From a virus, in IMG/VR virus record IMGVR_UViG_3300040801_001810, positions 1 to 64,000 of that record: DNA of 64,000 nucleotides. One strand, written 5' to 3'. Under the pieces are notes generated by a model. It made no database searches. It had not been told where the DNA came from and saw only the letters and a program-made list of their open reading frames with translations. Positions 7,145 to 28,235 of this stretch are shown one piece after another. The first letter of the stretch is position 1, and each line of letters starts with the position of its first letter. The translations under genes and the position numbers were made by a program.

Positions 7145-7552
7145 ATGTCACATTATAACAAAATTAAGACACAAATTAAAAATAGAAACAATCTAGTAAA
7201 AGCTCTGTGTAAGATGGGATTTACAGAAGACCAGATTCGTGTATGCGATACAGCAGAACATCTAGAAGGATACGAAGGAAGAAAACGTCCTGAAACAGCT
7301 AATGTTATTATTCCTCGTAAATATGTTGGTGGAGCAGCTAATGATATTGGTTGGAAGCTAGGTGAAGATGGGACCTATGAAGCTATCATATCAGATTATG
7401 ATAAACGTAAGTATAATACTGCTTGGTGTGGTAAGATGGAAACCCATTATGGAATTGAACAGTCAAAAGAGGCTTTTACCATGAATGGTTGGAGTTATTC
7501 AGAACAAGTAACCGAAGAAGGCGAAGTTCAGCTGATTGGAGTAATGTACTAA
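7145..7552 (+). CDS. DUF1257 (Ycf35-like) protein, copy 1
   Basis: 135 residues. Opens MSHYNKIKTQIKNRNNLVKAL, the hallmark of the DUF1257/Ycf35 family known from cyanobacteria, red algal plastids and phages; the second half matches the family pattern (VGGAANDIGWKLGEDGTYEAIISDYD). Length is typical. Its stop overlaps the start of a DUF2997-like gene, the partner expected for this family. A second pair lies at 27580-28235. Biochemical role unknown in any organism that I know. Confidence 0.75.
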   Translation: MSHYNKIKTQIKNRNNLVKALCKMGFTEDQIRVCDTAEHLEGYEGRKRPETANVIIPRKYVGGAANDIGWKLGEDGTYEAIISDYDKRKYNTAWCGKMETHYGIEQSKEAFTMNGWSYSEQVTEEGEVQLIGVMY

Positions 7553-7752
7553 TGAAAAAGATAACACTTACCTTTAAATGGGACGGAAAGACAGTTGAAA
7601 AAGATGTAGAAGGTTTTGAAGGCGGGGGATGTATTACAGCTACTGACTTTATTAACAAAGCACTTGGTTCAACTGAAGAAGAACAAATGAAGCCATCATA
7701 TTATCTTCCAAATCCAGAAGGATTAGACGTTCAAGCAAAAGTGTATAACTAA
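7552..7752 (+). CDS. DUF2997-like small protein, copy 1
   Basis: 66 residues starting at the ATG that overlaps the DUF1257 stop (TAATG). Pattern: beta strand KKITLTFKWDGKTVEKD, a Gly-rich turn with a Cys (GFEGGGCITATDFINKAL) and an amphipathic helix, as in the short DUF2997 proteins that accompany DUF1257. Inference: the two products form a complex. Confidence 0.65.
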   Translation: MKKITLTFKWDGKTVEKDVEGFEGGGCITATDFINKALGSTEEEQMKPSYYLPNPEGLDVQAKVYN

Positions 7753-7753
7753 G

Positions 7754-8365
7754 ATGAAACGTAATGACAAGTTTTATAGAGAAAAAAAATTAAGGAAAGA
7801 TATTAAAGAGTACGACGAACTTTCTAATAAGAAAAGAAAACCTGAAAAAAGATTTTTAGGGTGGAAGAGAAGAAAGAAAGTTAATAGTGCTGGTAAAAAA
7901 CTTGCAGTTGGCCAAGATCTAGAATTACTTGTTAATACAATTGGAGTTTGGCAAATAAGCGATATTAAAGGAAATTGGCGCTGTCAAGATGAATGGTTTA
8001 AACCAATTTCTCATGAACAGTATAAACAGCTTCCAGCTAATATCCAGTATTTATTAGAATGTGACAGAGAAAAAGAGTATTCTCTTTTACTTTCTAATGA
8101 TAAATCGACCGCAAAATGGTTCATAGCCAGAAGGTATGAAAAGTATCTCTATATAAAAGTTAAAAGAAATATTAGAAAAACTAGATATAGAGGGTGGACA
8201 CTTCAATATGAACCAGATGAAATAAAACTTAGAGATAAACTTTTGGCACAAGCAGCTTGGGTTAAAATTTTCGGTGATTATAATAGTTATTGGGACGAAG
8301 AATATCATAAACGCAAGAAAAAGATATTAGAAAAAGAAATAAATAGAGAATTAGACTTGGAATAA
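7754..8365 (+). CDS. Basic hypothetical protein
   Basis: 203 residues, strongly basic (many KK and RK pairs). Starts two bases after the DUF2997-like gene. N-terminal 50 residues are a charged helix (REKKLRKDIKEYDELS); the centre is aromatic rich (WQISDIKGNWRCQDEWF). No known motif. Likely binds nucleic acid, by composition only. Confidence 0.55.
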   Translation: MKRNDKFYREKKLRKDIKEYDELSNKKRKPEKRFLGWKRRKKVNSAGKKLAVGQDLELLVNTIGVWQISDIKGNWRCQDEWFKPISHEQYKQLPANIQYLLECDREKEYSLLLSNDKSTAKWFIARRYEKYLYIKVKRNIRKTRYRGWTLQYEPDEIKLRDKLLAQAAWVKIFGDYNSYWDEEYHKRKKKILEKEINRELDLE

Positions 8366-8367
8366 TC

Positions 8368-8781
8368 ATGACTACATTTAAGATATTAAAAGAACCAGTT
8401 AAACCTGTTAAACGATCAGCTATTAAACGCACTACGTTATATGATGATTTTTATATTAAGGATGTCATTAAGACAATTACTGACAATGACGGAGATATTA
8501 ATACTGCATTTGTATCATGTAGTAAAGATTACGACGATGACATTGAAATAGAATTGACATATCGTCATGGATCAGAAGAAGAATATAATCAACAAATGGC
8601 TGAATATAAATTAAAGCTTGCTGATTATAGAAAATGGAAAAAAGAAAATAAATATCAGATCCAAGAAGAATTAAGAAGAAGAAAATATCTACGAGAGAAG
8701 AGAAAAATAGAAAAATTAGAACGAGAAAAACAGAAATTAATAGAAAAATTAAAGAAGTTAGATAATAAACTTGACTTTTAA
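8368..8781 (+). CDS. Hypothetical protein with C-terminal coiled coil
   Basis: 137 residues. A mixed N-terminal half (TTFKILKEPVKPVKRS, FVSCSKDYDDDIEIEL) is followed by an uninterrupted charged helix from about 85 onward (LREKRKIEKLEREKQKLIEK). Two bases separate it from the gene before. The opening residues resemble the small leader ORF at 8939. Its last codons contain the -35 element of the next promoter. Function unknown. Confidence 0.6.
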   Translation: MTTFKILKEPVKPVKRSAIKRTTLYDDFYIKDVIKTITDNDGDINTAFVSCSKDYDDDIEIELTYRHGSEEEYNQQMAEYKLKLADYRKWKKENKYQIQEELRRRKYLREKRKIEKLEREKQKLIEKLKKLDNKLDF

Positions 8782-8799
8782 CTGACATTGACGTATATT
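8771..8799 (+). promoter_or_regulatory. Sigma70-like promoter for tRNA segment
   Basis: TTGACT (8771-8776), 17-base spacer, TATATT (8794-8799). The same hexamers and spacing recur at 16686, 46577 and 49605, so this is a phage promoter class. It would start RNA near 8806, just upstream of tRNA-Asn. Confidence 0.75.
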
Positions 8800-8826
8800 A
8801 TAATTAGTCCTGCCTATTTAATTTAC

Positions 8827-8915
8827 TGGCAGATCGCTCAATCGGCAGAGCACCAGGCTGTTAACCTGACGTGGCGTAAGCCCACCTGGGGGTTCAAGTC
8901 CCTCTCTGCCAGCCA
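8827..8915 (+). tRNA. tRNA-Asn (GTT) with long variable arm
   Basis: Acceptor TGGCAGA pairs with TCTGCCA (8905-8911), discriminator G, CCA at 8913-8915. D stem GCTC/GAGC; anticodon loop CTGTTAA in a stem CCAGG/CCTGA with one mismatch at the base. T stem GGGGG/CCCTC. Between anticodon and T arms is an 18-base variable region able to form GTGG/CCAC. Asn tRNAs normally have a short variable loop, so the body is unusual. Confidence 0.85.
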
Positions 8916-8938
8916 ATTATTTTAGAAAGTAAACAACT

Positions 8939-9055
8939 ATGACAGCATTCAAATTATTAATGAGTAAGTGTACAATTCAACACAACTCGAGTATATTTGA
9001 TGGTAATTCTTTTAACGCCGCATCAGGCCATGGAGAAGATAATATCCAAATTTAA
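8939..9055 (+). CDS. Possible 38-aa leader peptide
   Basis: ATG at 8939 to TAA at 9053-9055, reading MTAFKLLMSK and ending NIQI. It contains four Asn and two His. The stop codon directly abuts an RNA segment that can act as antiterminator, followed by a terminator, which is the layout of a translated leader in attenuation. Its first residues resemble those of the gene at 8368, so it may instead be a decayed copy of that gene's start. There is no strong RBS. Confidence 0.35.
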   Translation: MTAFKLLMSKCTIQHNSSIFDGNSFNAASGHGEDNIQI

Positions 9056-9114
9056 CTGTCGAGTTTTACTATATACAAGAAAAGCCCCTCGACAGCAAAT
9101 CGAGAGGCTTTTTT
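9056..9114 (+). terminator. Terminator with competing antiterminator
   Basis: Terminator: GCCCCTCGA (9084-9092) pairs with TCGAGAGGC (9100-9108), one mismatch, followed by six T (9109-9114). Upstream, CTGTCGAG (9056-9063) is perfectly complementary to CTCGACAG (9088-9095), which overlaps the terminator's 5' arm. The two pairings exclude each other, so the element may switch between termination and read-through into the following tRNAs. Confidence 0.75.
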
Positions 9115-9162
9115 AGTATTAGGACTAAGTTCTTTGAAATTCTAGATAACAAGTACATATTT

Positions 9163-9239
9163 GGGCTGTTAACTCAGTTGGTCAGAGTAGCACACTCATA
9201 ATGTGATCGTCGGGGGTTCAAGTCCCTCACAGCCCACCA
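9163..9239 (+). tRNA. tRNA with CAT anticodon (Met or Ile2)
   Basis: Acceptor GGGCTGT pairs with ACAGCCC (9229-9235), discriminator A, CCA 9237-9239. Anticodon stem GCACA/TGTGA (one mismatch) closes CTCATAA. Third CAT tRNA of the window; probably one is elongator Met and one Ile2. Confidence 0.9.
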
Positions 9240-9248
9240 AACTTTAAT

Positions 9249-9321
9249 GGGGTCGTAGCTCAGTTGGGAGAGCGCTTGGCTTGCACCCAGGAGGTCAGGA
9301 GTTCAAACCTCCTCGGCTCCA
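9249..9321 (+). tRNA. tRNA-Ala (anticodon TGC)
   Basis: Acceptor GGGGTCG pairs with CGGCTCC (9314-9320) and includes the G3-U70 pair that specifies alanine. Anticodon loop CTTGCAC. Discriminator A, no encoded CCA. Confidence 0.95.
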
Positions 9322-9338
9322 CTATATATAGAGGAATT

Positions 9339-9806
9339 ATGGAAGAAGAAACAAAACCTTTTAGTGAAAAATTAAAAAATAAATATGATCTTCCAGCTAA
9401 ATTAGTTGCTGAAGATTTTATGAATGAAATTGGTTTTGACACTAAAGGTATATTAAATGAACAAAAAGAACAATTTGAAAAATATGATACAGAATATGAT
9501 TTTCTTGGAACTACAGTAACTGCTGAAGCAGAATATAAAGAAGGTTGGACTGATCGTGGACATTGGCAATATAATTTTCCAACTATAGATGTATCATATA
9601 GAAAAAGATATAGTGAAGCACATGTATTTGTAATGTGTAATTTCCATAAAGACACAATAGCAGTAGCTTGGATGAAAGATGTAATTACGTCTGATACTTA
9701 TTGTAAAAAAACAAAACATACAACTTGGGAACGATTTTTTAAATGTAATCCAAAGATATTTACTATATATCTCAAGAAAAATGGAAGATGGAAGAAAATA
9801 AATTAA
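9339..9806 (+). CDS. Hypothetical protein
   Basis: 155 residues from ATG 9339 with GAGGAATT just upstream. N-terminal helix (PFSEKLKNKYDLPAKLVAEDFM), then a beta-rich domain with many aromatic residues (GWTDRGHWQYNFPTIDVSYRKR, AHVFVMCNFHKDTIAVAWM) and a basic C-terminus. The strand pattern with D and K residues is loosely like endonuclease folds, but no motif is secure. Its stop codon lies one base before tRNA-Phe. Confidence 0.55.
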   Translation: MEEETKPFSEKLKNKYDLPAKLVAEDFMNEIGFDTKGILNEQKEQFEKYDTEYDFLGTTVTAEAEYKEGWTDRGHWQYNFPTIDVSYRKRYSEAHVFVMCNFHKDTIAVAWMKDVITSDTYCKKTKHTTWERFFKCNPKIFTIYLKKNGRWKKIN

Positions 9807-9807
9807 T

Positions 9808-9881
9808 GCCGTCGTAGCTGAGGGGTTTAGCGCAGGATTGAAGCTCCTGAGACGTCGGATCGACCCCGACCGTCGGCACCA
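9808..9881 (+). tRNA. tRNA-Phe (anticodon GAA)
   Basis: Anticodon stem CAGGA/TCCTG closes TTGAAGC. Acceptor GCCGTCG pairs with CGTCGGC (9871-9877) with one T-T mismatch; discriminator A, CCA 9879-9881. The T loop reads ATCGACC rather than TTCRANN, so the gene is somewhat degenerate. Confidence 0.85.
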
Positions 9882-9885
9882 ATAT

Positions 9886-9957
9886 GGGGCGTTCGTCTAG
9901 TGGTTAGGACAGCTGGTTTTCAGCCAACTAACAGGAGTTCGATTCTCCTACGCCCTA
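9886..9957 (+). tRNA. tRNA-Glu (anticodon TTC)
   Basis: D-arm TTCGTCTAGTGG is typical of Glu. Anticodon stem GCTGG/CCAAC (one mismatch) closes TTTTCAG. Acceptor GGGGCGT pairs with ACGCCCT (9950-9956) with a terminal G-T pair; discriminator A, no encoded CCA. Confidence 0.9.
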
Positions 9958-9979
9958 TTTAACATTATATGGGGATAGT

Positions 9980-10618
9980 ATGTGGGGTAAAAGAAATGTT
10001 GTTGTACTAAATAAATATGGTGAATATTGGTCTGAAGTTACAGTACGAAGAGCTATTAATAAGATATTAAATCTTAGAGCAACTATAGTAGCAGAAGATA
10101 AATCACATTTTTTAGGTACAATAGTACGAGAAGATGGTCCATCTATTAAATACATTCCTCTATATCGACCGTTTGTAATTCAATTAAAATACTTTGATTA
10201 TTATAAGTATACAAGCGATATTGTTCCATATAGTGATAGACAAGTATTTATTCGAGACAAAAACATTTGTCAATATTGGCATGACTATACATTAAAATTA
10301 GTTGATGGTAAATTAGTCAAAGAAGAAGCAGAACGACACAAGTATAATGTATCTCTATCAGAAAGAACGATAGATCACGTAATACCTGTATCAAAAGGCG
10401 GAAGAAAAGCAGACTATGAAAATGTAGTTTGTTGTTGCAGATATTGCAATGAAGTTATTAAACGAGACATGACTCCCAAAGAAGCAGGGTTAGTTTTAAT
10501 CAAAAAACCCTGTGCTCCTCATAGAGTAAAAGGAGACATAGCAAGAAATATGTTTATGTATGATCCTGACAAAGATTCACATAAAGCATATATAATATGG
10601 AAAAAAGAATCATTTTAA
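9980..10618 (+). CDS. HNH endonuclease of the McrA-like type
   Basis: 212 residues. Opens with VVVLNKYGEYWSEVTVRRA, the N-terminal block of a widespread bacterial HNH family, then RDKNICQYW, and the catalytic RTIDHVIPVSKGG (about 130-142) with NVVCCCRYCN and TPKEAGL after it. The first zinc knuckle, usually CxxC, is reduced to CQYW, so zinc binding by that side is in doubt. Known role: metal-dependent DNA cleavage; within a tRNA island it may act in homing or degrade competing DNA. Start follows GGGGATAG. Confidence 0.8.
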   Translation: MWGKRNVVVLNKYGEYWSEVTVRRAINKILNLRATIVAEDKSHFLGTIVREDGPSIKYIPLYRPFVIQLKYFDYYKYTSDIVPYSDRQVFIRDKNICQYWHDYTLKLVDGKLVKEEAERHKYNVSLSERTIDHVIPVSKGGRKADYENVVCCCRYCNEVIKRDMTPKEAGLVLIKKPCAPHRVKGDIARNMFMYDPDKDSHKAYIIWKKESF

Positions 10619-10696
10619 GCATCGTTAGTGAAGTTGGTCAATCACGTCGGACTGTCAATCCGAAGAACACGGGTTCAAATCCCGTACGATGCGCCA
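10619..10696 (+). tRNA. tRNA-Asp (anticodon GTC)
   Basis: Acceptor GCATCGT pairs with ACGATGC (10686-10692), discriminator G, CCA 10694-10696. Anticodon stem TCGGA/TCCGA closes CTGTCAA. It begins directly after the stop of the HNH gene. Confidence 0.95.
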
Positions 10697-10711
10697 TTTT
10701 AAGGAGATAGA

Positions 10712-10945
10712 ATGTCATTTTCAGAAGAACAACTTGAACAATTAGATGATATGTTAGAGCAAACAGTTGTTGCAGCAGAAAAAGCAATTGAGAAAGTAGT
10801 TAATGGTAATTTTCCAAAACATATTGCGCAATTCGATAAAAATCTATACGACGAGTATGTTAAACAAGGATTTGATGAAAATTTTGCATGTATGCTTGTT
10901 CAACGATTTGATACAGCTGGTTTTTTAGGACAGAAAAGAACTTAA
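10712..10945 (+). CDS. Small hypothetical protein
   Basis: 77 residues, preceded by AAGGAG. Acidic helix at the start (SEEQLEQLDDMLEQTVVAAEKAIEKVV), then DKNLYDEYVKQGFDENFACMLVQ, which has the helix-turn pattern of small phage proteins of unknown role. Lies between tRNA-Asp and tRNA-Ser. Confidence 0.6.
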   Translation: MSFSEEQLEQLDDMLEQTVVAAEKAIEKVVNGNFPKHIAQFDKNLYDEYVKQGFDENFACMLVQRFDTAGFLGQKRT

Positions 10946-10951
10946 TTTTAC

Positions 10952-11037
10952 GGAGAGTTAGGATAATTGGTAATCCAGCACATTGCTAATGTGCCGCCCT
11001 TCGGGGCTTACAGGTTCAAGTCCTGTACTCTCCGCCA
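10952..11037 (+). tRNA. tRNA-Ser (anticodon GCT)
   Basis: Acceptor GGAGAGT pairs with ACTCTCC (11027-11033), discriminator G, CCA 11035-11037. Anticodon stem GCACA/TGTGC closes TTGCTAA. Long variable arm with GCCCTTCGGGGC as expected for Ser. Confidence 0.95.
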
Positions 11038-11048
11038 TAAGGATTACA

Positions 11049-11381
11049 ATGAAAGACAAATTCAAATTAATAGTTTCATTGGTAGCTATAATCACTATAA
11101 TTGTAATAGGAGTAGGTTTTAGTCAACAAACTCCTCCAAGATTACCAACAGTAATGGCTGAATGTTCTGGAGAAGACGTAGAAGTAACTTTTAACATACC
11201 ATTAGCTGGAGCATTAAAAGTATTAGGATTTAGTGTAGAAAATTCAATTATTAAAGATACAGGAACAGCTGTAATTTATATACCAACAATAGATGTATAT
11301 TATGTTACTAAGCGAGACCAAGAATCAAGAAGATATGATGGAGAAATTTTTTCTTATATTAAATCGGAGTGTTTAAAATGA
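11049..11381 (+). CDS. Small secreted or membrane-anchored protein
   Basis: 110 residues. A short basic N-terminus (MKDKFK) is followed by a hydrophobic helix LIVSLVAIITIIVIGVGF (7-24), either a signal peptide or a membrane anchor, then a periplasmic-type domain with two cysteines (C36 in MAECSGE and C108 near the end). ATG 11049 after AAGGATTAC. Function unknown; could act at the host envelope. Confidence 0.6.
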   Translation: MKDKFKLIVSLVAIITIIVIGVGFSQQTPPRLPTVMAECSGEDVEVTFNIPLAGALKVLGFSVENSIIKDTGTAVIYIPTIDVYYVTKRDQESRRYDGEIFSYIKSECLK

Positions 11382-11632
11382 GTACAGTAGCAATGTTTAC
11401 TTTAACATATGACCAGCTAGAGAACGATTGCAAAATAGCAATGGATGCTACTTTAGAAGCATTAGTAGTTGAAAAAATTCTAGATGAAAAAGTAGCAACA
11501 AATTGGATGAAAGAGCATTCTATTATAATTAGAAAACGTAGTTTCTTTGATAGACTATTTAAACCAGAAAAAGGCAAAAAAGAAGATAGACATTTTACGA
11601 TTGTTAAAAAAGTAGTACCAGAAGAATATTAA
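11378..11632 (+). CDS. Small hypothetical protein
   Basis: 84 residues from the ATG in an ATGA overlap with the previous stop. The pattern TLTYDQLENDCKIAMDATLEALVVEKILDEKVATNWMKEHSIII is predicted helical; the tail is basic and hydrophobic (SFFDRLFKPEKGKKEDRHFTIVKKVV). Not recognised. Confidence 0.55.
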   Translation: MSTVAMFTLTYDQLENDCKIAMDATLEALVVEKILDEKVATNWMKEHSIIIRKRSFFDRLFKPEKGKKEDRHFTIVKKVVPEEY

Positions 11633-11638
11633 AATTAT

Positions 11639-11765
11639 ACGAGGGTAGCTCAGTCGGCGGAGCGACGGTCGAAGACCGTGTCAATGGCCGTTACAGCGTA
11701 CGGGTAACATCTCAGAGACGTTTGAGGTTTGGTCTGCGGAAGTTCAATTCTTCCCCCTCGTGCCA
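11639..11765 (+). tRNA. Aberrant 127-nt tRNA-like gene
   Basis: Acceptor ACGAGGG pairs perfectly with CCCTCGT (11755-11761), discriminator G and CCA at 11763-11765. D arm GCTC/GAGC and T arm GGAAG/CTTCC with loop TTCAATT are intact. The anticodon arm is odd: ACGG/CCGT closes TCGAAGA, implying GAA with C instead of the near-universal U33, or a 5-base loop if a fifth pair forms. About 55 extra bases (roughly 11680-11735), themselves able to form small hairpins (GTTAC/GTAAC), separate it from the T arm. Identity undetermined; may be an intron-bearing or non-decoding RNA. Confidence 0.6.
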
Positions 11766-11771
11766 ATTTAA

Positions 11772-11847
11772 GCGATAGTACATCAATTGGTAGATGGCCA
11801 CGTTGCCAACGTGGAGGTTGCGAGTTCGAGTCTCGCCTATCGCACCA
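11772..11847 (+). tRNA. tRNA-Gly (anticodon GCC)
   Basis: Acceptor GCGATAG pairs with CTATCGC (11837-11843), discriminator A, CCA 11845-11847. Anticodon stem CCACG/CGTGG closes TTGCCAA. Confidence 0.95.
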
Positions 11848-11856
11848 GGGGCATAT

Positions 11857-12111
11857 ATGAAGTATTGTACAATATGTAAGAAATTAAGTAATACTCGGAT
11901 TAAAATCAGTAAATGGTTTTATAATAAATGTATTACTTATGAAAGAGAAGTATGCGCTGGCTGCCAAAGTGAATTATTAATCGATCATATTCCAAAAGAC
12001 ACATCTAAGATTAAAATCCCATGGCAAGAAAAAAGAAGAGCAAAACGATATGAACAAAGAATGTATACAATAAATGAAAGAATGAGTAACGGATGGCCAA
12101 GCTTAGGATAG
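11857..12111 (+). CDS. Small Cys-motif protein
   Basis: 84 residues from ATG 11857, AGGGG upstream. CTICKKL near residue 4 and CAGCQSEL near 33 form a four-cysteine zinc-binding pair. Basic overall (IPWQEKRRAKRYEQR). Overlaps the following gene by 19 bases. Family unknown, probably nucleic-acid binding by composition. Confidence 0.6.
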   Translation: MKYCTICKKLSNTRIKISKWFYNKCITYEREVCAGCQSELLIDHIPKDTSKIKIPWQEKRRAKRYEQRMYTINERMSNGWPSLG

Positions 12112-12278
12112 CAATAATAACTTTATTTATTTTATTTTATAATTGTGTTGGAACAGTTACAGTTTCAGAACTTAGCTTTCTAGAACCATTATATAAAGTA
12201 AAAGAAAATAAGATTATTTCAATAGATACAGTTTATACAAATTATGAAAAACTTTACAAAGTTAAATATAGGAGATAA
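12093..12278 (+). CDS. Short protein with N-terminal signal
   Basis: 61 residues. A short basic start (MAKLR) and hydrophobic core IAIITLFILFY followed by N-C-V-G look like a signal peptide, but the residues before Cys18 do not fit a standard lipobox. The rest is a small polar tail with several Tyr and Lys. RBS GGATGG lies within the upstream gene. Envelope role possible; function unknown. Confidence 0.5.
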   Translation: MAKLRIAIITLFILFYNCVGTVTVSELSFLEPLYKVKENKIISIDTVYTNYEKLYKVKYRR

Positions 12279-12280
12279 GT

Positions 12281-12436
12281 ATGCATGAGAAAAAAGGCGA
12301 GCTGGTAATCTGCGGATTCGTTAAGCAATGCAAAATTAAGAAATGTGTACATAAAGAACCACATCAATATTCAGATGCATGTAAGGGTATGTGTAAACAT
12401 ATGGGATATGCAGAATGTAGAGAAATTAGAAAATGA
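12281..12436 (+). CDS. Cys-rich mini-protein (51 aa)
   Basis: ATG at 12281 after AGGAGAT. Starts MHEKKGELVICGF and contains six cysteines (positions 11, 17, 22, 34, 38, 46) plus several His, spaced as for one or two metal sites. The ATGA overlap with the next gene supports translation. Not recognised. Confidence 0.6.
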   Translation: MHEKKGELVICGFVKQCKIKKCVHKEPHQYSDACKGMCKHMGYAECREIRK

Positions 12437-12651
12437 ACAAAGTATATCTATCAAGAAAAAATCTAAAGGCACTTCTATCAAAATTAGATAGGAGAGCAAA
12501 AGGCGAAACTACAATGTGTACTATTATCAAAAATGATACAGTACATCCAGTATATCCTCAGACAATGCCTAAAATTGCAGTAATAGCTGTAGAAGATAAG
12601 GAATACTATATAGATAGACCTGCTGGAGAAGTTTATCCATCAGATTGTTAA
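12433..12651 (+). CDS. Conserved small phage protein
   Basis: 72 residues. MNKVYLSRKNLKALLSKLDR followed by TMCTIIKNDTVHP and IAVIAVEDKEYY is a pattern I recognise from uncharacterised proteins shared by many large phages. Overlaps the upstream stop by four bases. Likely a single small beta domain. Function unknown. Confidence 0.65.
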   Translation: MNKVYLSRKNLKALLSKLDRRAKGETTMCTIIKNDTVHPVYPQTMPKIAVIAVEDKEYYIDRPAGEVYPSDC

Positions 12652-12658
12652 TAATTAA

Positions 12659-12734
12659 GCGGGTGTGACGCAATTGATAGCGTGTCTGATTTCCAATCAG
12701 AATGTTGCAGGTTTGAGTCCTGTCACCCGCACCA
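12659..12734 (+). tRNA. tRNA-Gly (anticodon TCC)
   Basis: Acceptor GCGGGTG pairs with CACCCGC (12724-12730), discriminator A, CCA 12732-12734. Anticodon stem TCTGA/TCAGA closes TTTCCAA. Confidence 0.95.
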
Positions 12735-12747
12735 TTTAAGGAGAAGT

Positions 12748-19920: not shown

Positions 19921-20287
19921 CAATCTAATTTACTCTGATGTGCGCTGTGAAAAATCTATACTTAGAATTAAAGAAGAACTTGGTATGGATATTCTACCGA
20001 GAATATCAAAAGAATCATGGACAGTAAATGATGCAATGAGTGTAATAACTATTCCTAATTTGAAATTAGCAGTAATTAATACCATTGATGAAATATCTGT
20101 CATGGAAATGGCTCTACTTCATTTCATGTGTAAACCTATTTTAGTAACAGCCAAGTCTATAGTTAACTATCCTGTGCTTGAGAAGAAGGTAGTAGACTTT
20201 GTTGATGTTAATTGTAATTTAAATGATGTTGATAATAATTTTGTTTCGTGGTATAAAAAAAGATATTTGGAGGCAATTAATGGATAG
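19913..20287 (+). CDS. Conserved hypothetical phage protein
   Basis: 124 residues. Alpha/beta pattern with LKLAVINTIDEISVMEMALLHFMCKPILVTAKSIVNYP, reminiscent of nucleoside deoxyribosyltransferase-like folds where an acidic residue precedes a substrate loop, but the key motifs are not secure. Overlaps both neighbours by eight bases. Unknown function. Confidence 0.5.
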   Translation: MSDNLIYSDVRCEKSILRIKEELGMDILPRISKESWTVNDAMSVITIPNLKLAVINTIDEISVMEMALLHFMCKPILVTAKSIVNYPVLEKKVVDFVDVNCNLNDVDNNFVSWYKKRYLEAING

Positions 20288-22310
20288 TAAATTTTCACCA
20301 TCTGTAAGCGATGCTTTACTCCATGCTGCAAATAATGGACTAGAGAATCTCTATACAGAAGATTCGTTAAAAATTCTATCTGATATAATTGATACCAAGA
20401 AAAAGATATCAGTACCAAAACGAATTAAAAAAGAAGTACAACTTAGATATGATGATCTTAAGCATCAGCTGCCTAATGGGCACATTTATACTAATGTACA
20501 AGAAATATTAAAGCACATCAGAGCAACCATTAAGGTTATTAATACTGACTCAGTAACATACTCTCCTCTATTATTTGCCTTCAAAGAATTTGATGCATGT
20601 AAACCAATGAAGTTTCGAAACGGGAACATCATTACTGGTAGAGAACAAGAAGTAGATACTACAATGCTAACGCTTTGTAAGAAAAATAAAAGAGGAGTTA
20701 TTCTTGTTGGTGAGCCAGGTGTAGGTAAGACAGCTATCGTACAAGCAATTAACTCTCGACTAATAGAGCGAACAGTACCGAGACAATTGATAGGTGCAGA
20801 AATATTAAATGTTGATCTACCATACATTTTCTCTAAGTATAAAGATGATCCCCTAGGAGTTATCATTGGAATTCTTGAACGAGCTAGTATATATGATAAG
20901 GCAATACTTTTTATTGATGAGGTACATCAGCTATTAGGTCAACGTATGAATGATGTAATGAAACCTTATCTAACAGAGAAAATTAGATTCATTGGTAGTA
21001 CTACACTTAATGAGTATCATACAATCATTACTGATGATACTGCGCTTGAGAGAAGATTTACTTTAGTTAATGTTGATGAGCCTAACATAACTAAGACAAC
21101 AAATATGATTCTAGGAACTAAAAGTGTCTTTGAAGAACATCATAAGTGTGTTGTTCCAGTTGATGTATGTAAATACTTAGTTGAAACTGGAAGTAGATTT
21201 CGTGGGAACAGAAAGAATCCTGATAAATCATTAGACTTATTAGACATTGCTTGCTCTATAATGTACGAGAATGAAATCGTTTCTGTTCACAATACTCCAG
21301 AGAAAAAAGAAGACTTCCTATTAAATATTGATTCAGAAAGACAAAAGATTGAATCACTAAAGACTGTAACAAATGATAGAGTTCTTACAAAGGACTACAT
21401 TGATATGGCTATCTCTAATGTAACTGGTATTAGCTACGGAGAAATAACTAATAGTCTTGAGTATAATGAAGTTAAGAAGGCTATGAATGATGAAGTATTT
21501 AATCAAGAGAAAGCTGTCTCTTCGCTTGCAAATGTTATTAATATATTTAAACACATTAAGAGCGACAGAGAACACCCAGTATCAATTCTTTTGTTAGTTG
21601 GACCAGCAGGAGTAGGAAAGAAAACTGCTTCTCAGTTGCTAGCTAAGAATTTATTTGGAAAGAAAGATTACTTTATAGACTTCGATATGAGTTCGTATAA
21701 AGAAAGCTTTACACTAAGTGAGTTGAAAGGTTCGCCCCCAGGCTATGTGGGTTACGGTAAGTCTGGTGTGCTAATTAAATCTATAAGGAATAATCCACAA
21801 TCAGTAGTTTATTTTAGAGGAATAGATAAAGCACACGAATCAATTAAACAATATCTAATAGATGGCTGTAGAAGTGGAAAGCTTACAGACACAGCAGAAA
21901 GGACAGCTAAACTTAATAACTCAATTATAATATTCTCAGTTACTTTATCAGATAAAGACTACGAAGAATTTTTGAGTGGAAAAGCAAATAGAACTATGGG
22001 TTTTTCTAAGCAAGGAACAGAAGATAGTACAAGTGTTCTTCAGAAAAATTCATTAGAAGAATTACTAGGCAAAGATCTAGTAAACTCATGTGATGAGATT
22101 ATAATTTTTGATAGCTTATCACAAGATACTCTAAAGAAAATATATGATTTAAGAGTAGAAGAATTTATTAACATGTATAGTAATGTGGATATTGATCGAA
22201 AGAAGCTGAAGAAAACCATCTTAGATGATTCTAAGAATGGTCATGATGTTATATCAAAAATAACATCAGAAGTTCCTAAACAAGTATTTAAACAACTTTC
22301 AAAGAAATGA
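20280..22310 (+). CDS. Clp-type double AAA+ ATPase, second site broken
   Basis: 676 residues, layout of a short ClpA/ClpC/ClpB protein. First ATPase: GEPGVGKT (144-151), FIDE (211-214) and ALERRF arginine-finger segment. Second ATPase: GPAGVGKK (441-448) with Lys in place of the usual Thr or Ser next to the P-loop lysine, then GSPPGYVGY (pore-loop region) and YFRGIDKAH where hhhDE should be, so the Walker B acidic pair is missing (511-514). The first domain can probably hydrolyse ATP, the second not. Known family role: unfolds proteins for disaggregation or for a protease. Starts at 20280 after TTGGAGGC. Confidence 0.82.
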   Translation: MDSKFSPSVSDALLHAANNGLENLYTEDSLKILSDIIDTKKKISVPKRIKKEVQLRYDDLKHQLPNGHIYTNVQEILKHIRATIKVINTDSVTYSPLLFAFKEFDACKPMKFRNGNIITGREQEVDTTMLTLCKKNKRGVILVGEPGVGKTAIVQAINSRLIERTVPRQLIGAEILNVDLPYIFSKYKDDPLGVIIGILERASIYDKAILFIDEVHQLLGQRMNDVMKPYLTEKIRFIGSTTLNEYHTIITDDTALERRFTLVNVDEPNITKTTNMILGTKSVFEEHHKCVVPVDVCKYLVETGSRFRGNRKNPDKSLDLLDIACSIMYENEIVSVHNTPEKKEDFLLNIDSERQKIESLKTVTNDRVLTKDYIDMAISNVTGISYGEITNSLEYNEVKKAMNDEVFNQEKAVSSLANVINIFKHIKSDREHPVSILLLVGPAGVGKKTASQLLAKNLFGKKDYFIDFDMSSYKESFTLSELKGSPPGYVGYGKSGVLIKSIRNNPQSVVYFRGIDKAHESIKQYLIDGCRSGKLTDTAERTAKLNNSIIIFSVTLSDKDYEEFLSGKANRTMGFSKQGTEDSTSVLQKNSLEELLGKDLVNSCDEIIIFDSLSQDTLKKIYDLRVEEFINMYSNVDIDRKKLKKTILDDSKNGHDVISKITSEVPKQVFKQLSKK

Positions 22311-22318
22311 GATTAACT

Positions 22319-22507
22319 ATGAGAACAACTTCAATTTTCCCAAATAGAATTGCTTCTATGATCAAGTCAGGATACAATCGTGGATGGAATTCAGAAATGA
22401 TTGCAGACCATATTAATAGTAGTAGAACAGCAAAGAATCTTAAAGTTAAAGTTACTACAAGATCAATTGCTGCAAAGATTGCTAATTACTCTAGAGATAG
22501 AGGTTAA
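22319..22507 (+). CDS. Small basic HTH-like protein
   Basis: 62 residues, MRTTSIFPNRIASMIKSGYNRG... An in-frame ATG at 22307 overlapping the previous stop is the alternative start. The helix pattern NRGWNSEMIADHINSS ... VKVTTRSIAAKIANYSRDRG fits a small helix-turn-helix with a recognition helix at the end. Function unknown. Confidence 0.55.
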   Translation: MRTTSIFPNRIASMIKSGYNRGWNSEMIADHINSSRTAKNLKVKVTTRSIAAKIANYSRDRG

Positions 22508-22550
22508 TTAGCTTAATCGATATCCACAACTATATTTAAAGGAGATACAA

Positions 22551-22949
22551 ATGAAATTGATTGAACTGCTACACGCAGAGGTAACAACTTTTTATGGTAC
22601 TAATGATGTACTTAAGGAGTTTGAGACAGAAAAAGGAACAGTAATGACATTTACTGTTAAGACAAAGGTTAATGATAGAACAGAAAAAAGTCCGCTAGTA
22701 TGGGATACTTGTAAGTACTTTGCTGATAGCTCAGAAAAAGTAGATCAAATTAGGGGAGCTATTAAGCTTGGTAACATTCTCGACATCAAGGGTAATCATG
22801 ATGTGAGAAGTTATGAAGATAAAGAGGGTAATAAAAAGTACAGTAACTCAGTTAATGTGAAATATATTAACCCAATTACCGATAACGATCAGCAACCAAG
22901 TCAGCCAGAAGCAACCCCAGCAGTAGCGGATGATGACCTTCCCTTCTAA
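22551..22949 (+). CDS. ssb: Single-stranded DNA-binding protein
   Basis: 132 residues after AAAGGAGAT. OB-fold strands (VMTFTVKTKVN, LVWDTCKYF, LGNILDIKGNHDVRSYEDKEGN, VNVKYI) and a Gln/Pro-rich linker end in the acidic tip DDDLPF, the tail by which bacterial SSBs recruit replication and repair partners. Length is shorter than bacterial SSB. Known role: coats ssDNA in replication and recombination. Expected to work with the polymerase, primase-helicase and RecA-like protein here. Confidence 0.85.
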   Translation: MKLIELLHAEVTTFYGTNDVLKEFETEKGTVMTFTVKTKVNDRTEKSPLVWDTCKYFADSSEKVDQIRGAIKLGNILDIKGNHDVRSYEDKEGNKKYSNSVNVKYINPITDNDQQPSQPEATPAVADDDLPF

Positions 22950-22958
22950 GGAGTAATA

Positions 22959-23387
22959 ATGTTTGTAACGGATGATGATAAAAAAATAAAATGGTATTGG
23001 CTTGACAGAAAAATGCATGAAGTAGCAGTTAACTTTGAAGGCGAAGATTTAGACCTTAGAGGAATACATGAGTCATGCATTAAGTTAGTTCAAGACAAAT
23101 CAGAATTATGTAAAAAGATATATTATCTAGGCATAAGTCTTTCTGGTACTGATGAAGGTGGGTGGGGATTCCTACTTGGCTGGTTAATGAGAAGCATTAA
23201 AAAAGATCAGAACTGGGAAATTCAACATGATGAGATAGCTGTATCCGAAGATGAAGTTACAGAACACCTAGCCGATATCATGGAGAAGACTGCTAAAATG
23301 CTAAGAGAAAAAACAGGAGACAATAGATCGCTTGGTGGCGTAACTCCTACGATGGGTGGGCACAATGGTACAGACCTGTTCAAATAA
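22959..23387 (+). CDS. Hypothetical protein
   Basis: 142 residues. Begins with VTDDDKKIKWYWLDRKMHEVAVNF and includes a Gly/Trp-rich segment (GTDEGGWGFLLGWLMRSI). A helical C-terminal half. Nine bases after SSB. Not recognised; possibly an SSB or replication partner by position only. Confidence 0.5.
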   Translation: MFVTDDDKKIKWYWLDRKMHEVAVNFEGEDLDLRGIHESCIKLVQDKSELCKKIYYLGISLSGTDEGGWGFLLGWLMRSIKKDQNWEIQHDEIAVSEDEVTEHLADIMEKTAKMLREKTGDNRSLGGVTPTMGGHNGTDLFK

Positions 23388-24189
23388 AGTCATCTCGTTA
23401 CATTTACAGAGGTGTGATGGGGATTGCCCTCATGCCTCTGTTTGTTATCTAATGAATAGAGAAATAGCTACTGATGATGACTTAAGTGATTGGGCAATGG
23501 TATGGCAAAGCATCGTTGGTTCAGGACATACTGTTCATGAATCTATTTGTTCAGCTGGAGTTCATACATATCATTTGTTTGAATTAGTAAAGAACAAAAA
23601 TTATAATATCACTTTATCTGGGAATTATATAACTGATGATTGGTTATTTAATGAACTAAAAAAAGTAAAAGATCAAGTACAGATTAGTATATATAGTTCA
23701 CCACAGATGCTTAGATTTAAAGAATGGCAAAAACTATTTTTAATTAAAGATGAACATACATACAATTGGTTTAAAGGTTGGTTAGGTGAAGATACAGGAC
23801 AACTTCACTTTCTATTAGATCAAAACTGGTTAACTACAGATACATTAAAAGAAATCATCCCGCTTTTTAACTCTAAAGCAAGCGTCGGACAGTCCATTGA
23901 TAGTTGTCTAACAAGTTGGTTAGTCAATGGTAGATGTCCATATTCGGATGGAAAATATATTGACATTAACTTTGACGGTACCGTTAGAACGTGTCCTTAT
24001 GCAGATAAAGGGGTCTTACCAAAGAGAGGTGGGAGTTTGAATACTCTGTTTGGCTTAAAGATGTTACCAAGGACTTGTATTTACACGGAACTATTTGGAG
24101 AAACAAACAATGGAAGAATTAACAATACCTGTTTACAAAATTACATTACCAATAACAGGAGCCGAAGCAGTTGTGAATGTTTCGGGTGA
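23365..24189 (+). CDS. Radical-SAM/SPASM-like Cys-cluster protein
   Basis: 274 residues from ATG 23365. Near the start, ISLHLQRCDGDCPHASVC recalls the radical SAM loop, but the spacing is C-x3-C-x5-C, not CxxxCxxC. Near residue 200, GRCPY...IDINFDGTVRTCPYADKG matches the SPASM-type pattern that binds auxiliary iron-sulfur clusters. More Cys follow (TCIYTE, TCLQNY, SSCECFG). Inference: an iron-sulfur enzyme related to, but diverged from, radical SAM proteins. Overlaps both neighbours. Confidence 0.5.
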   Translation: MVQTCSNKVISLHLQRCDGDCPHASVCYLMNREIATDDDLSDWAMVWQSIVGSGHTVHESICSAGVHTYHLFELVKNKNYNITLSGNYITDDWLFNELKKVKDQVQISIYSSPQMLRFKEWQKLFLIKDEHTYNWFKGWLGEDTGQLHFLLDQNWLTTDTLKEIIPLFNSKASVGQSIDSCLTSWLVNGRCPYSDGKYIDINFDGTVRTCPYADKGVLPKRGGSLNTLFGLKMLPRTCIYTELFGETNNGRINNTCLQNYITNNRSRSSCECFG

Positions 24190-24955
24190 TTGGCATTATG
24201 GAGCACGAGGAGTTAGTAAAGAAAAGATTATTTCTGCTCTTAATGGTGTAGCTACTACACATAAAGGAAATGTATTTAGAATACTAACAGGGGATTTGAC
24301 AGAAAATGCACTACAATCATCAGTAGGACATAACTATGACATAGCAATACCAGATCCATGTGATCAAAAAAAAGATGTCATGGATATATTAGAGCAAACT
24401 AATAAAGTATTGTATGGTGAATCAGTTTGGAATAAATTAAAGTTATCTAAGAAAGTAATAAATTCTAGATGTATTGCTGTTGAAGGTAACCATGAGATGA
24501 GAACAAGAAAGTTAACGGGACAATGGCTAGGTGAAGAGATGTGCAAGCCAGGAAAAGTTAACTGGATAGGACTAAGTGGACTTATTCATCTTACAATAGT
24601 TAATAAGAGACTTAAAATGAGTAAGACCTATAAGTTATTTGTATCACATAGACCAAGTAAAACAAATGCTACTTCATTAGAATCTATATCAAGAGCATTT
24701 AAAACTAAACAAAGTTCATTACCTGGTGTAGATGCATTAATATTTGGTCATTTTCATAAGAGATTTATCTCAGCTAATGGATACTTTGATACGACAGAAA
24801 ATAGATTTAAGAAGGTACTATATATAATTAACCCATCCCCTCTTGCAGGAATGGAATATGCAGAAGAGGCAGGATATCCTCCTCTAGAAGTAGGTTATTC
24901 AGTTAACATCTATTTACCATTAGATAAAAATCAACAACCATATGGAATAGTTTAG
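24110..24955 (+). CDS. Metallophosphoesterase
   Basis: 281 residues from ATG 24110 (GGAG upstream). All family motifs are present: GDWHYG (26-31), LTGDLTEN, EGNHEMR, SHRPSK and GHFHKRF, giving a binuclear metal site. The length fits SbcD/Mre11-like or lambda-phosphatase-type enzymes, but there is no SbcC partner. Substrate unknown; nucleic acid ends or cyclic phosphates are possible. Directly upstream of the Ycf46-like ATPase. Confidence 0.8.
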   Translation: MEELTIPVYKITLPITGAEAVVNVSGDWHYGARGVSKEKIISALNGVATTHKGNVFRILTGDLTENALQSSVGHNYDIAIPDPCDQKKDVMDILEQTNKVLYGESVWNKLKLSKKVINSRCIAVEGNHEMRTRKLTGQWLGEEMCKPGKVNWIGLSGLIHLTIVNKRLKMSKTYKLFVSHRPSKTNATSLESISRAFKTKQSSLPGVDALIFGHFHKRFISANGYFDTTENRFKKVLYIINPSPLAGMEYAEEAGYPPLEVGYSVNIYLPLDKNQQPYGIV

Positions 24956-24963
24956 GAGGATGA

Positions 24964-26727
24964 ATGGCTAAGTCATCAGAAAAAGAGTCTACCAATACTA
25001 CAACTTTTAAAGAGTTGTATGATAGAATCGATTGTGATACTGGAATTATCTTTGTTGATACTCCAGAAGAAACAAGATTGATTAGAGAAGTATTCCGTAG
25101 ATACAAAGATGGATCAGTACAATTCTGGTCTATAGGACAAGGGCTACATGAAATTGAAAAAAGAAAAGTAGTAATTGATAGATTCTATCCTTACAAGTTC
25201 CAAAGCGATAAGGCCAGAACTGGTAAGTCTGGAAACATGGACACAAGACATACACCAATCAATCTGTTCTCAGTTATAGAAGAAGATTGTAGATCAAAGA
25301 TTAAACCAAATGAGGATCCAGATAAGAAACACATTTATGTGCTAAGAGATCTAGATAAGTTCTTGAAGGATCCAATGATTATCAGACGATTAAAAGATCT
25401 GATTTATCTTTGTGGTACTACTTGTTCAACTATCATTGTTACTGGTAATGGTATTAATGTACCAGATGATATTGAAAAGGACGCAGTGTTCCTTAAGCTA
25501 AAGTATCCAACAAGACAAGAAGCGCTAGTTATCATTAAAGATCTAAGAGAAAAAATTGAAGAACATAATAAGATTTGTGTTCCAGATAATAAGATAGATG
25601 CTTCCTTTGATGATGATAGTATTGCTGGTGCTTGTATGGGTCTTACCGAGGATCAAATTATTAATGTATTACAGTATACAATGAGTGTTGACAATTGTAT
25701 TGACGTTAATAAGATCATCGATGAAAAGAAAGCTATTATTAACAAGTCAGATATCCTAGAGTACTGGCCCTGTAATGATACACTAGATAGTATTGGTGGA
25801 TTTGGTGCAATTAAGAAATGGTTCGACGTTAAAAAGTCAGTAATCAAGAATCTAGAAAACGCAGAGCATTTCAAAGCTGATCCTCCAAAGGGAATTATGC
25901 TACTAGGTGTACAGGGTAGTGGTAAGACTGCTATTGCTAAAGCATTAGCCCAGTCCTGGGAAGTTGGATTGATTAAGCTTGATATCGGTAAGGTATTTGC
26001 TGGTCTAGTTGGTGAATCAGAAAAAAGAATGAGACAAGCACTAGCTCAAATCGATGCAGCTGGTGGTGTTATTATTATTGATGAGCTAGATAAGGGTCTA
26101 TCAGGAGCAGGAAGCTCAGATAAGACTGATGGTGGTACTACTAACCGTGTTATTGGTACCTTGCTTACATGGCTATCAGAGAAGCACCCTGGTGTATTCC
26201 TTGTAGCTACTGCTAATGATATTACTGCTCTTAGAAGAAATCATCCTGAACTTCTACGTAAGGGAAGATTTGATGAAATTTGGTTCTCAGATGTTCCTAC
26301 TCAAGAAGAACGAGAAGAAATCTTTAAGATTCATCTTAAGAAAAGAGGTAGGAATCCTGACAGAATTGATTGTAAGAAACTAGCAGAGTATAAATATAAT
26401 GATAGTGGTACTGAGTATGATATTACTGGTGCTGAAATCGAGTGTTCAATTAATGATGCCATACAAGAAAAATTCTCTCAAGGCGGAGGAAAGAAACTTG
26501 TTATAGATAGTAAAGATGATATTGTTACACAAGATATCCTTGATCAGCTTAAGGTGACTAAGCCAATCACTAAGATTGCTAAGGAAACTATATCAGCAAT
26601 GAGAAAATGGTCTAATGATAATGCACGTAACGTATCAACTATCTTAGAAGATAATAAGAAAACTAAAGCCACTAAAGGCGGAAGTAAATTAAAAATTAGG
26701 GCTTCAGCAGATGAGGTGACTTTATAA
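24964..26727 (+). CDS. Ycf46-like AAA+ ATPase
   Basis: 587 residues after TTAGGAGGATGA. The N-terminal domain (1-260) has the Ycf46 pattern: GIIFVDTPEETRLIREVFRR, FWSIGQGLHEIEKR and YVLRDLDKFLKDP. The AAA module has GVQGSGKT (315-322), GGVIIIDELDKGL (367-379), a sensor in LVATANDI and arginine fingers in LRKGRFDE. Ycf46 is encoded by plastids and cyanobacteria, where it has been linked to regulation of photosynthesis and CO2 use. It stands here beside DUF1257 (Ycf35) and DUF2997 genes. Function in a phage unknown. Confidence 0.8.
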   Translation: MAKSSEKESTNTTTFKELYDRIDCDTGIIFVDTPEETRLIREVFRRYKDGSVQFWSIGQGLHEIEKRKVVIDRFYPYKFQSDKARTGKSGNMDTRHTPINLFSVIEEDCRSKIKPNEDPDKKHIYVLRDLDKFLKDPMIIRRLKDLIYLCGTTCSTIIVTGNGINVPDDIEKDAVFLKLKYPTRQEALVIIKDLREKIEEHNKICVPDNKIDASFDDDSIAGACMGLTEDQIINVLQYTMSVDNCIDVNKIIDEKKAIINKSDILEYWPCNDTLDSIGGFGAIKKWFDVKKSVIKNLENAEHFKADPPKGIMLLGVQGSGKTAIAKALAQSWEVGLIKLDIGKVFAGLVGESEKRMRQALAQIDAAGGVIIIDELDKGLSGAGSSDKTDGGTTNRVIGTLLTWLSEKHPGVFLVATANDITALRRNHPELLRKGRFDEIWFSDVPTQEEREEIFKIHLKKRGRNPDRIDCKKLAEYKYNDSGTEYDITGAEIECSINDAIQEKFSQGGGKKLVIDSKDDIVTQDILDQLKVTKPITKIAKETISAMRKWSNDNARNVSTILEDNKKTKATKGGSKLKIRASADEVTL

Positions 26728-27602
26728 TGATATGTATATACCATAATGATATGGATGGAAAGTGTGCCGCTGCTATAGTGCGGCACGCTAATAAAACTAA
26801 AGATATAACTTTTATTAATACTAATTATAATAGACCTTTTCCTTGGAAAGAAATAGAAGGACAAGATGTAGTTATGGTAGACTTTACTGTACAACCATAT
26901 ACTGATATGATTCTATTAAATACTAAAGCTAAAAGTTTAATTTGGATTGATCATCATAAAACAGCAATCGAAGCAGTTGAAAAACTACCAGTAACAATAG
27001 ATGGTCTTAGAAGAATAAACAATGGTGCTGGTTGTGAACTGACTTGGGAATGGTATTACAAAGATGTAGAACCACCTCTTGCTGTTGAGTACATTGGTGA
27101 TTATGATACATGGAAGTTTGCATTTGGAGATAAAACTAAGAGATTTCAAAGCGGAACATATGTAAGAGATATGGATCCAGATGAAAAAATATGGAATTAT
27201 TTATTAAATGAAGGTAGAAAATGTGATCATGTTATAGATGAGATCATTAAAGACGGCATTACCATTGAAAAATATAATGCAAATACGTGGAAATCTCGAA
27301 TGAAAAATGGTATATTTGAGATAGAATTAGATGGACATATAGGATTAGCTTGTAATTACTGGGGAGCAGGATCTAATTTATTTCAATCAATCGAAAACCT
27401 TTATGATAAGTATGATTTTACTTGTGTATTTAGCTGGAATGGAAAGGTGTGGACTTCTTCCTTATACACAGAAAGAAAAGATATTGATGTATCTAAAATA
27501 GCAACAAAACTTGGTGGAGGTGGTCACGCAGGAGCAGCTGGCTTTGTATGCGAAGTGCTTCCATTTAAAAGGAGAGAAAATGAGTCACAAGACAGAAATT
27601 AA
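26727..27602 (+). CDS. DHH-family phosphoesterase
   Basis: 291 residues. Motif HNDMDGKCAA (6-15), VMVDFT, IDHHKTA near 75 (the DHH signature), IGDYDTW and the terminal GGGGHAGAAGF of the DHHA1 domain near 265-275. The family hydrolyses short RNAs (nanoRNase NrnA), pAp or cyclic dinucleotides with Mn2+. Starts on the last base of the Ycf46-like gene. Inference: clears nanoRNA or signalling nucleotides. The substrate cannot be told from sequence. Confidence 0.82.
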   Translation: MICIYHNDMDGKCAAAIVRHANKTKDITFINTNYNRPFPWKEIEGQDVVMVDFTVQPYTDMILLNTKAKSLIWIDHHKTAIEAVEKLPVTIDGLRRINNGAGCELTWEWYYKDVEPPLAVEYIGDYDTWKFAFGDKTKRFQSGTYVRDMDPDEKIWNYLLNEGRKCDHVIDEIIKDGITIEKYNANTWKSRMKNGIFEIELDGHIGLACNYWGAGSNLFQSIENLYDKYDFTCVFSWNGKVWTSSLYTERKDIDVSKIATKLGGGGHAGAAGFVCEVLPFKRRENESQDRN

Positions 27603-28035
27603 AACAGAACTTAACAACAAAAATTATTTATTAAAGGCATTAGATAAGCTTGGATTTACTTATGAGGTAGCTAAGGATAATTCTAAACTTAAAACAAAGA
27701 GCCAGTATGAAGGGGACATTGAAGTAGATATACTAATAACAGGTAATGTTAGTGGAGTTACCTCTAGATATGGTTATGGTAGCGGATATCAATCTGATGT
27801 TGGCTTTGTTCAACAAGAAGATGGCACATTTACAGCAGTAGGGGACTTCTATAACATGGTAGATAAAGATGGGAAACATGTTTCAATGGAAGGACTTAAA
27901 TGTAATGTAACTACTTACTCTAAAGAAGTAGAAGTCAATGAAAGACTTCAAGCATTCATGTTTCAAATGGAAGAAAATACTAGAAAAGAAGACAGTAAAG
28001 AACTATCATTTACAATGCAAAGGTGGGTATCATAA
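27580..28035 (+). CDS. DUF1257 (Ycf35-like) protein, copy 2
   Basis: 151 residues from ATG 27580 (AGGAGAG upstream). Opens MSHKTEIKTELNNKNYLLKALDKLGF, matching copy 1 at 7145 and the Ycf35 family, with the later block DVGFVQQEDGTFTAVGDFYN. Longer than copy 1. Overlaps both neighbours and follows the Ycf46-like ATPase and DHH genes. Unknown biochemical role. Confidence 0.78.
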   Translation: MSHKTEIKTELNNKNYLLKALDKLGFTYEVAKDNSKLKTKSQYEGDIEVDILITGNVSGVTSRYGYGSGYQSDVGFVQQEDGTFTAVGDFYNMVDKDGKHVSMEGLKCNVTTYSKEVEVNERLQAFMFQMEENTRKEDSKELSFTMQRWVS

Positions 28036-28235
28036 TGCCATATCAAAAAGTACATGTAACAATCAATAAGAAAACTGGAAAGATGACTATTGAAGGTGAT
28101 GGTTTTATTGGTAATCAATGTGATGTCTTAGAACAAGTTGAGCACCAACTTGGAACAGTAACTCACACAGAAGATAAACCAGAAAGACACCAGTATGTTC
28201 AACCAGATTATGTTCCTAATACATTAGGTAGATAA
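28035..28235 (+). CDS. DUF2997-like small protein, copy 2
   Basis: 66 residues, ATG overlapping the DUF1257 stop. Two beta strands (KVHVTINKKTGKMTIEGDGF), a Gly-x-x-Cys turn (IGNQCDVLEQVEHQLG) and a helix, then a polar tail with HQYVQPDYVP. Same size and overlap as copy 1 at 7552. Confidence 0.7.
   Translation: MPYQKVHVTINKKTGKMTIEGDGFIGNQCDVLEQVEHQLGTVTHTEDKPERHQYVQPDYVPNTLGR

Follow-up and report, generated by a model that had tools for sequence, protein, structure and literature searches.

A Ycf46-type ATPase gene linked to DUF1257 and DUF2997 genes in phages, plasmids, and cells: a possible ATP-driven remodeling module

The stretch of phage DNA considered here (the window) is 64,000 nucleotides long, positions 1 to 64,000 of the 230,193-base IMG/VR record IMGVR_UViG_3300040801_001810. 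It encodes an AAA ATPase of the Ycf46 family and, twice over, a pair of small proteins assigned to DUF1257 (Ycf35-type) and DUF2997; one pair goes with the ATPase gene, and the other stands alone 17 kb upstream of it. An earlier sequence-only reading suggested that these belong to one multi-gene system, and this has held up: the three genes are linked in viruses, plasmids, bacteria, and an archaeal contig, they co-occur in two bacterial phyla, and the two smaller ones are sometimes fused. That the ATPase, DUF1257, and DUF2997 genes constitute a genetic module, linked beyond chance, is well supported. As to function, we favor a virus-borne, ATP-driven remodeler composed of a tandem AAA motor and a DUF1257–DUF2997 adaptor, at a probability of roughly 0.55; the complex itself, the adaptor role, the remodeling, its substrate, and the role of the upstream pair are what we infer.

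The gene set in the window

All five genes are on the + strand, and the coordinates first read proved exact to the base. The ATPase gene (24964..26727, 587 aa) matches phrog_8638 at 2.7e-100 and Pfam AAA at 7.6e-22. Its accompanying pair consists of DUF1257 copy 2 (27580..28035, 151 aa; phrog_20456, 2.0e-6) and DUF2997 copy 2 (28035..28235, 66 aa, with a GFxGxxC motif; Pfam, 9.4e-5; phrog_23133, 7.1e-8; profile, 5e-18). The stand-alone pair is DUF1257 copy 1 (7145..7552, 135 aa; phrog_20456, 8.2e-12) and DUF2997 copy 1 (7552..7752, 66 aa; Pfam DUF2997, 6.6e-10, 39.2 bits), whose ATG at 7552 overlaps the DUF1257 stop by one base. Such start/stop overlaps had been taken as a pointer to a protein complex, but they carry no weight in this respect: 25 of the 37 junctions checked between 5 and 31 kb overlap. 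The whole record contains two DUF1257 genes and two DUF2997 genes, and no more. The two DUF1257 proteins are 28% identical, and by sequence the pairs are distant paralogues. Relatives of copy 1 reach 52% (L012) and 64% (L095); the counterpart of copy 2 adjoins the AAA gene directly in the related loci L009, L010, and L065.

Confirmation by hidden Markov models (HMM) was mixed. Copy 1 of DUF2997 (PF11211) passes the Pfam gathering score, and copy 2, at 22.6 bits against a cut-off of 24.1, falls 1.5 bits short and is supported by phrog_23133. The Ycf46 family is confirmed by phrog_8638. For DUF1257, Pfam fails and PHROG and an iterated profile succeed: PF06868 finds neither window copy and has no hit at all across the 230-kb record, and tblastn of single window copies against GenBank phages gave no match, but phrog_20456 also matches a cyanobacterial protein (1.1e-12) that Pfam names DUF1257 at 2e-22, and the iterated profile finds copies 1 and 2 at 1e-36 and 4e-28. 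Because phrog_20456 and the iterated profile join the window copies to a PF06868 member, their assignment to DUF1257 holds as a profile-based one, the profile step being required, and the label “Ycf35-like” given at first sight is right. Aligned DUF1257 proteins share a conserved MSH start and a common column pattern.

Linkage in viruses

IMG/VR was scanned with an ATPase alignment and the best 80 loci were kept; at least 79 loci were obtained, and the viral counts are those of a sample. (A nine-sequence AAA alignment was dropped as scan query, being too diverse.) Loci were dereplicated at 72% identity, and those counted are flanked by 3 kb or more on each side. DUF1257 and DUF2997 both lie within 5 kb of the ATPase gene in 38 of 51 dereplicated viral loci, with none on the opposite strand. 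Viral loci lacking the pair mostly have none elsewhere on the contig (many contigs are fragments), and two have a clear DUF1257 elsewhere. The neighborhood survey suggested in the sequence-only reading shows strong co-occurrence, here and in two bacterial phyla (below).

The set is also present in GenBank phages of Rhizobium, Rhodobacter, Agrobacterium, and Pseudomonas, and in Acidianus tailed spindle virus; for Rhizobium phage RHph_I4, the depositors' own annotation names both DUFs. The trio is found in an archaeal virus locus, L007. DUF1257 and DUF2997 are fused into a single protein in L076 and L086, and probably in L044. The gene order, first thought to be fixed, is not: the pair precedes the AAA gene in L030, L058, and L139, and cyanobacteria have DUF2997 ahead of DUF1257.

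Linkage in cells and plasmids

Eighty cellular loci were fetched with a Ycf46 consensus probe used as bait only. Ycf46 is followed by DUF1257 and DUF2997 in Verrucomicrobia, Planctomycetes, Omnitrophota, Elusimicrobia, Chloroflexi, and Myxococcota; in a Hodarchaeota contig (L139) the two DUF genes (Pfam 1.6e-22 and 4.7e-18) precede it. Directly after the trio on that contig are Mre11-like and Rad50-like genes (3100-5105). In cyanobacteria, a DUF1257 gene follows Ycf46 in 22 loci. A 714-aa DUF1257 frame in planctomycete G041 was considered as an AAA fusion and rejected: the AAA gene is a separate one, and the frame runs over it by accident (L176).

Two phylum samples, of 118 Planctomycetota and 141 Myxococcota genomes, were drawn evenly and, except for the center genome, blind to the trio. 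The distributions are nested: 10 Planctomycetota genomes have DUF1257, all of them among the 18 with DUF2997, and these in turn all among the 33 with Ycf46; the corresponding Myxococcota numbers are 32, 33, and 102, nested in the same way. All 23 planctomycete DUF2997 genes are 62-1086 bp from a Ycf46 gene, and 32 of 33 myxococcal DUF1257 genes are 73-761 bp from one, with all 33 lying 27-210 bp from DUF2997. Hypergeometric values for co-occurrence (1e-12, 4e-10, and 7e-31) take no account of shared ancestry and come out too small; the adjacency is independent of them. The dependence is one-way: the DUF genes need Ycf46, and Ycf46 often occurs without them.

In PLSDB, a Ycf46-type gene is found on 705 plasmids, 590 of them conjugative. 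On the IncC conjugative plasmid pC06114_2 of E. coli (L191 4977-7137), the one plasmid on which the reading of IncC neighbors is based, the ATPase gene is followed by a DUF1257-like gene starting with MSH and a DUF2997-like gene bearing GFQGKTC; our own profiles find these at 1.8e-10 and 1.4e-9, and Pfam DUF2997 at 2.9e-4, below its cut-off. Trios annotated with both DUFs named are carried by Manganitrophus, Pseudanabaena, Planktothrix, Geminocystis, and Trichormus plasmids. In Pseudanabaena plasmid pPg_01 (L187 571-6515), genes for GrpE and Hsp70 share an operon with DUF1257, DUF2997, and the ATPase.

The enrichment in phages and conjugative plasmids could conceivably mean that this is a conflict module, for defense, counter-defense, or the exclusion of plasmids or phages, and there are weak PADLOC matches (2e-14) of the AAA domain to IetA. 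These are limited to the generic AAA domain, however; PADLOC has no match for DUF1257 or DUF2997, there is no toxin-like partner, and the genes are found in free-living bacterial chromosomes beside ordinary cellular genes. A role in conflict is accordingly judged improbable.

The ATPase and its relatives

The match to phrog_8638 runs from residue 10 to 571 of the protein and from 17 to 552 of the 568-position model, covering N-terminal and AAA domains, and the same model spans cyanobacterial (2e-156) and Hodarchaeota (2e-152) Ycf46-type proteins end to end. By these alignments the ATPase is Ycf46-type over its whole length, and the first label, “Ycf46-like,” was well chosen. The name itself rests on the published Synechocystis gene order slr0373-slr0374(ycf46)-slr0376, an operon (PMC7283877), which appears to be matched by the order small gene, AAA, DUF1257 in the 22 cyanobacterial loci; from gene order, slr0376 would be a DUF1257 member. 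The Synechocystis slr0374 product and plastid Ycf46 share full-length homology with the window ATPase, N-terminal domain included, and differ in being ~33% identical to it. Cyanobacterial Ycf46 also has DUF2997 at another locus, where the phage has it in the same operon, and has a function tied to CO2 use. The cyanobacterial DUF2997-Ycf35-fed7 arrangement (cluster g, PMC4284462), already known, likewise has the two DUF families adjoining (L184), but in reversed order, with a ferredoxin partner and the ATPase elsewhere; it is this arrangement that the stand-alone pair at 7145 resembles.

Pairwise distances of the three proteins correlate (Spearman 0.50-0.57 for viral and 0.30-0.57 for cellular loci). 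In a quick maximum-likelihood tree, unrooted and with a probe-biased cellular sample, the viral ATPases are spread over many deep branches and the cellular ones fall mostly into a single group, with loci having DUF neighbors scattered over the whole tree. The window ATPase is far from the cyanobacterial ones. Both placements run counter to the idea that the genes are a photosynthesis set of host origin with which a cyanophage serves the metabolism of its host. So does the presence of the trio in phages of Rhizobium, Agrobacterium, Pseudomonas, and Rhodobacter, in an Acidianus virus, on an IncC plasmid, and in bacteria that do not photosynthesize. It is true that plastids and cyanobacteria carry ycf35 and ycf46, and that ycf46 inactivation is described as lowering the activity of the carbonic anhydrase EcaB (Jiang 2015, as cited in PMC7496141). 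As a general explanation, though, a photosynthesis set is refuted, and its chance of being right is very small.

Of the two AAA domains of the protein, the first (about residues 25-260) is degenerate and the second (about 275-560) is of the active type. The second has Walker A (G315-K321), Walker B (D373-E374), sensor-1 (N418), and R432/R435, kept in 63-64 of 64 relatives. The first has no Walker A, with a conserved [T/S]xE..R motif at its place. In a close phage relative (L010 7992-10811), an intein-like insertion falls exactly in the domain 2 Walker A (GVQGSGK / TFCAQ). An AlphaFold model built with 64 sequences (pLDDT 90.6, pTM 0.87) aligns by Foldseek with p97/Cdc48, Rix7/NVL, and Drg1 over ~600 columns (E 2.7e-21, TM ~0.57), and because of the length of this alignment the ATPase is predicted to have the tandem AAA architecture of p97/Rix7. 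It resembles p97/Cdc48 (which works with Ufd1-Npl4) and Rix7/NVL in its tandem AAA domains and in a predicted fold that extends over both, but it differs from p97 in that its first AAA domain is degenerate and in the absence of a p97 N domain.

Fold and sequence class are shared with p97, PAN, and FtsH, so the AAA protein might also be an unfoldase that passes substrates selected by the pair to a host or phage peptidase. A gene for a ClpA-like tandem AAA protein 3 kb upstream (20223-22310; 695 aa; phrog_4871, 1.1e-102), found in close relatives too, would fit; this protein is itself without a peptidase. Against such a role, the ATPase has no peptidase domain, there is no peptidase among the recurrent neighbors, and matches to proteasome and FtsH models are far under the cut-offs. 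The chances of a protease-feeding system seem slim.

The pair proteins

The motif [G/S]xxC is present in 74 of 76 dereplicated DUF2997 proteins. A second DUF2997 protein in L030 (7733-8050) has threonine in place of the conserved cysteine. Planctomycete DUF1257 proteins (L118 5034-6005; L104, L107, and L186) lack the MSH start and open with a hydrophobic segment that may be a membrane one, and L118 has two DUF1257 proteins in tandem. The AlphaFold model of DUF1257 copy 1 (pLDDT 92.9, pTM 0.86) has one viral relative in BFVD. In sequence, neither DUF1257 nor DUF2997 matches Ufd1, Npl4, or any other chain of solved structure.

The main rival to the remodeling reading starts from the DUF2997 cysteine. 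The pair would be the working part, with this residue binding or sensing a redox center, and the AAA protein an assembly or activation factor that loads or resets that center (compare CbbQ/MoxR). MoxR/CbbQ-type ATPases with VWA partners likewise combine an ATPase with dedicated small partner genes, though they belong to another AAA clade and have other partner families than the Ycf46 module. Apart from the conservation of the motif, points in favor of this rival are the ferredoxin gene in the cyanobacterial duf2997-ycf35-fed7 cluster (PMC4284462), a 4Fe-4S protein gene directly upstream of Ycf46 on a Treponema plasmid, and the reaction of the Synechocystis ycf46 operon to iron, light, and oxidative stress (PMC7496141). 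DUF2997 has a single conserved cysteine, however, with no second ligand; the L030 protein does without it; and a ferredoxin gene is not a constant neighbor in the viruses or in either sampled phylum. A redox center is thus an unlikely explanation, if less so than the other alternatives.

A possible mechanism

As an ATP-driven remodeler, the system might work as follows. The first AAA domain would have lost nucleotide binding, and the second would hydrolyze ATP. DUF1257 and DUF2997 would act as a pair, probably a heterodimer; the evidence bearing on contact between them consists of the gene fusions. The pair would be a dedicated adaptor that brings a substrate to the motor or positions it there, as Ufd1-Npl4 does for p97, and the motor would pull apart or reshape a protein or nucleoprotein complex. 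The pair at 7145 would most likely be an alternative adaptor for the same motor.

An adaptor is preferred for three reasons. The pair needs the motor but not vice versa; this phage has a further pair standing free, and so do cyanobacteria, in which DUF2997-Ycf35 is apart from Ycf46-DUF1257; and p97 itself works by adaptor swapping, with different adaptors exchanged on one motor. The GrpE and Hsp70 genes in the Pseudanabaena plasmid operon also fit protein remodeling.

For many phages, this one included, an assembly for replication or recombination would be the likely substrate. Genes for an O-like initiator and a DnaB-like helicase recur near the ATPase gene (22-25 viral loci), and the window also has genes for SSB, a UvsX-like recombinase, a DNA polymerase, a primase-helicase, and an Erf-like protein. 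On these grounds a complex of this kind is the likeliest candidate in viruses, if a rather doubtful one.

Several observations weigh against this remodeling mechanism. Many Ycf46 proteins are without either DUF anywhere in the genome, which implies that the motor can do without the pair, on its own or with different partners. The replication context is weak because in packed phage genomes most genes are near replication genes, and neighbors in Planctomycetota and Verrucomicrobia, named from sequence reading, are instead PilT-type ATPase and radical-SAM genes. The pore loop is GLVG, not strongly aromatic. Finally, the DUF1257 model has no PDB match at E <= 0.001, so there is no fold match to known adaptors.

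Other genes of the operon and the window

Two further genes had been counted as possible parts of the system, and neither belongs to its core. A DHH phosphoesterase gene (26727..27602, + strand; phrog_4771, 2.8e-46) lies between the AAA gene and DUF1257; it is absent from the close relatives L009, L010, and L065, where DUF1257 directly follows AAA, and present in L066, and is read as a local insertion in one branch. Upstream of the AAA gene is an SbcD-like metallophosphoesterase gene (24095..24955, + strand; Pfam Metallophos, 1.7e-4; phrog_7339 “DNA repair exonuclease,” 5.5e-17), with the same position in L009, L010, L065, and L066 and found in no other loci; it is a constant neighbor within this phage clade only.

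In 17 loci from alphaproteobacterial and Pseudomonas phages, a gene of 201-243 aa (gene X), absent from the window, stands between AAA and DUF1257; it has no Pfam or PHROG match. A DUF3150-type gene is near the ATPase gene in 13 viral loci (L050, L052, L055, L058, and others) and one plasmid (L193 6139-6711), and is not general.

Nearly all genes of the phage record are on the + strand. Sixteen tRNA genes are located within its first 15 kb, 11 of which alternate with small ORFs, some overlapping, between 8827 and 14872. A VWA-like protein (2367-3080; phrog_7371, of unknown function) is encoded near the first of them.

Significance

In the open-access literature, subscription journals being outside the search, DUF2997 is named in two papers, DUF1257 is not paired with phages, and there is no statement joining Ycf46 with DUF1257 and DUF2997 or placing the set on phages or IncC plasmids. 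A wider proposal is offered tentatively, at somewhat less than even odds: that this is a new p97-like remodeling system with its own two-protein adaptor, found in bacteria, archaea, and plastids, on conjugative plasmids, and in viruses of both bacteria and archaea. Additional stand-alone pairs in phages and some cyanobacteria would redirect its motor, and plastid ycf46 and ycf35 would be surviving pieces of the system. Little is known of what these two plastid genes do, and the link to a module supplies a concrete hypothesis for the two orphans, as it does for a gene set on conjugative plasmids and many phages. Two orphan chloroplast families may in this way become parts of one testable machine.

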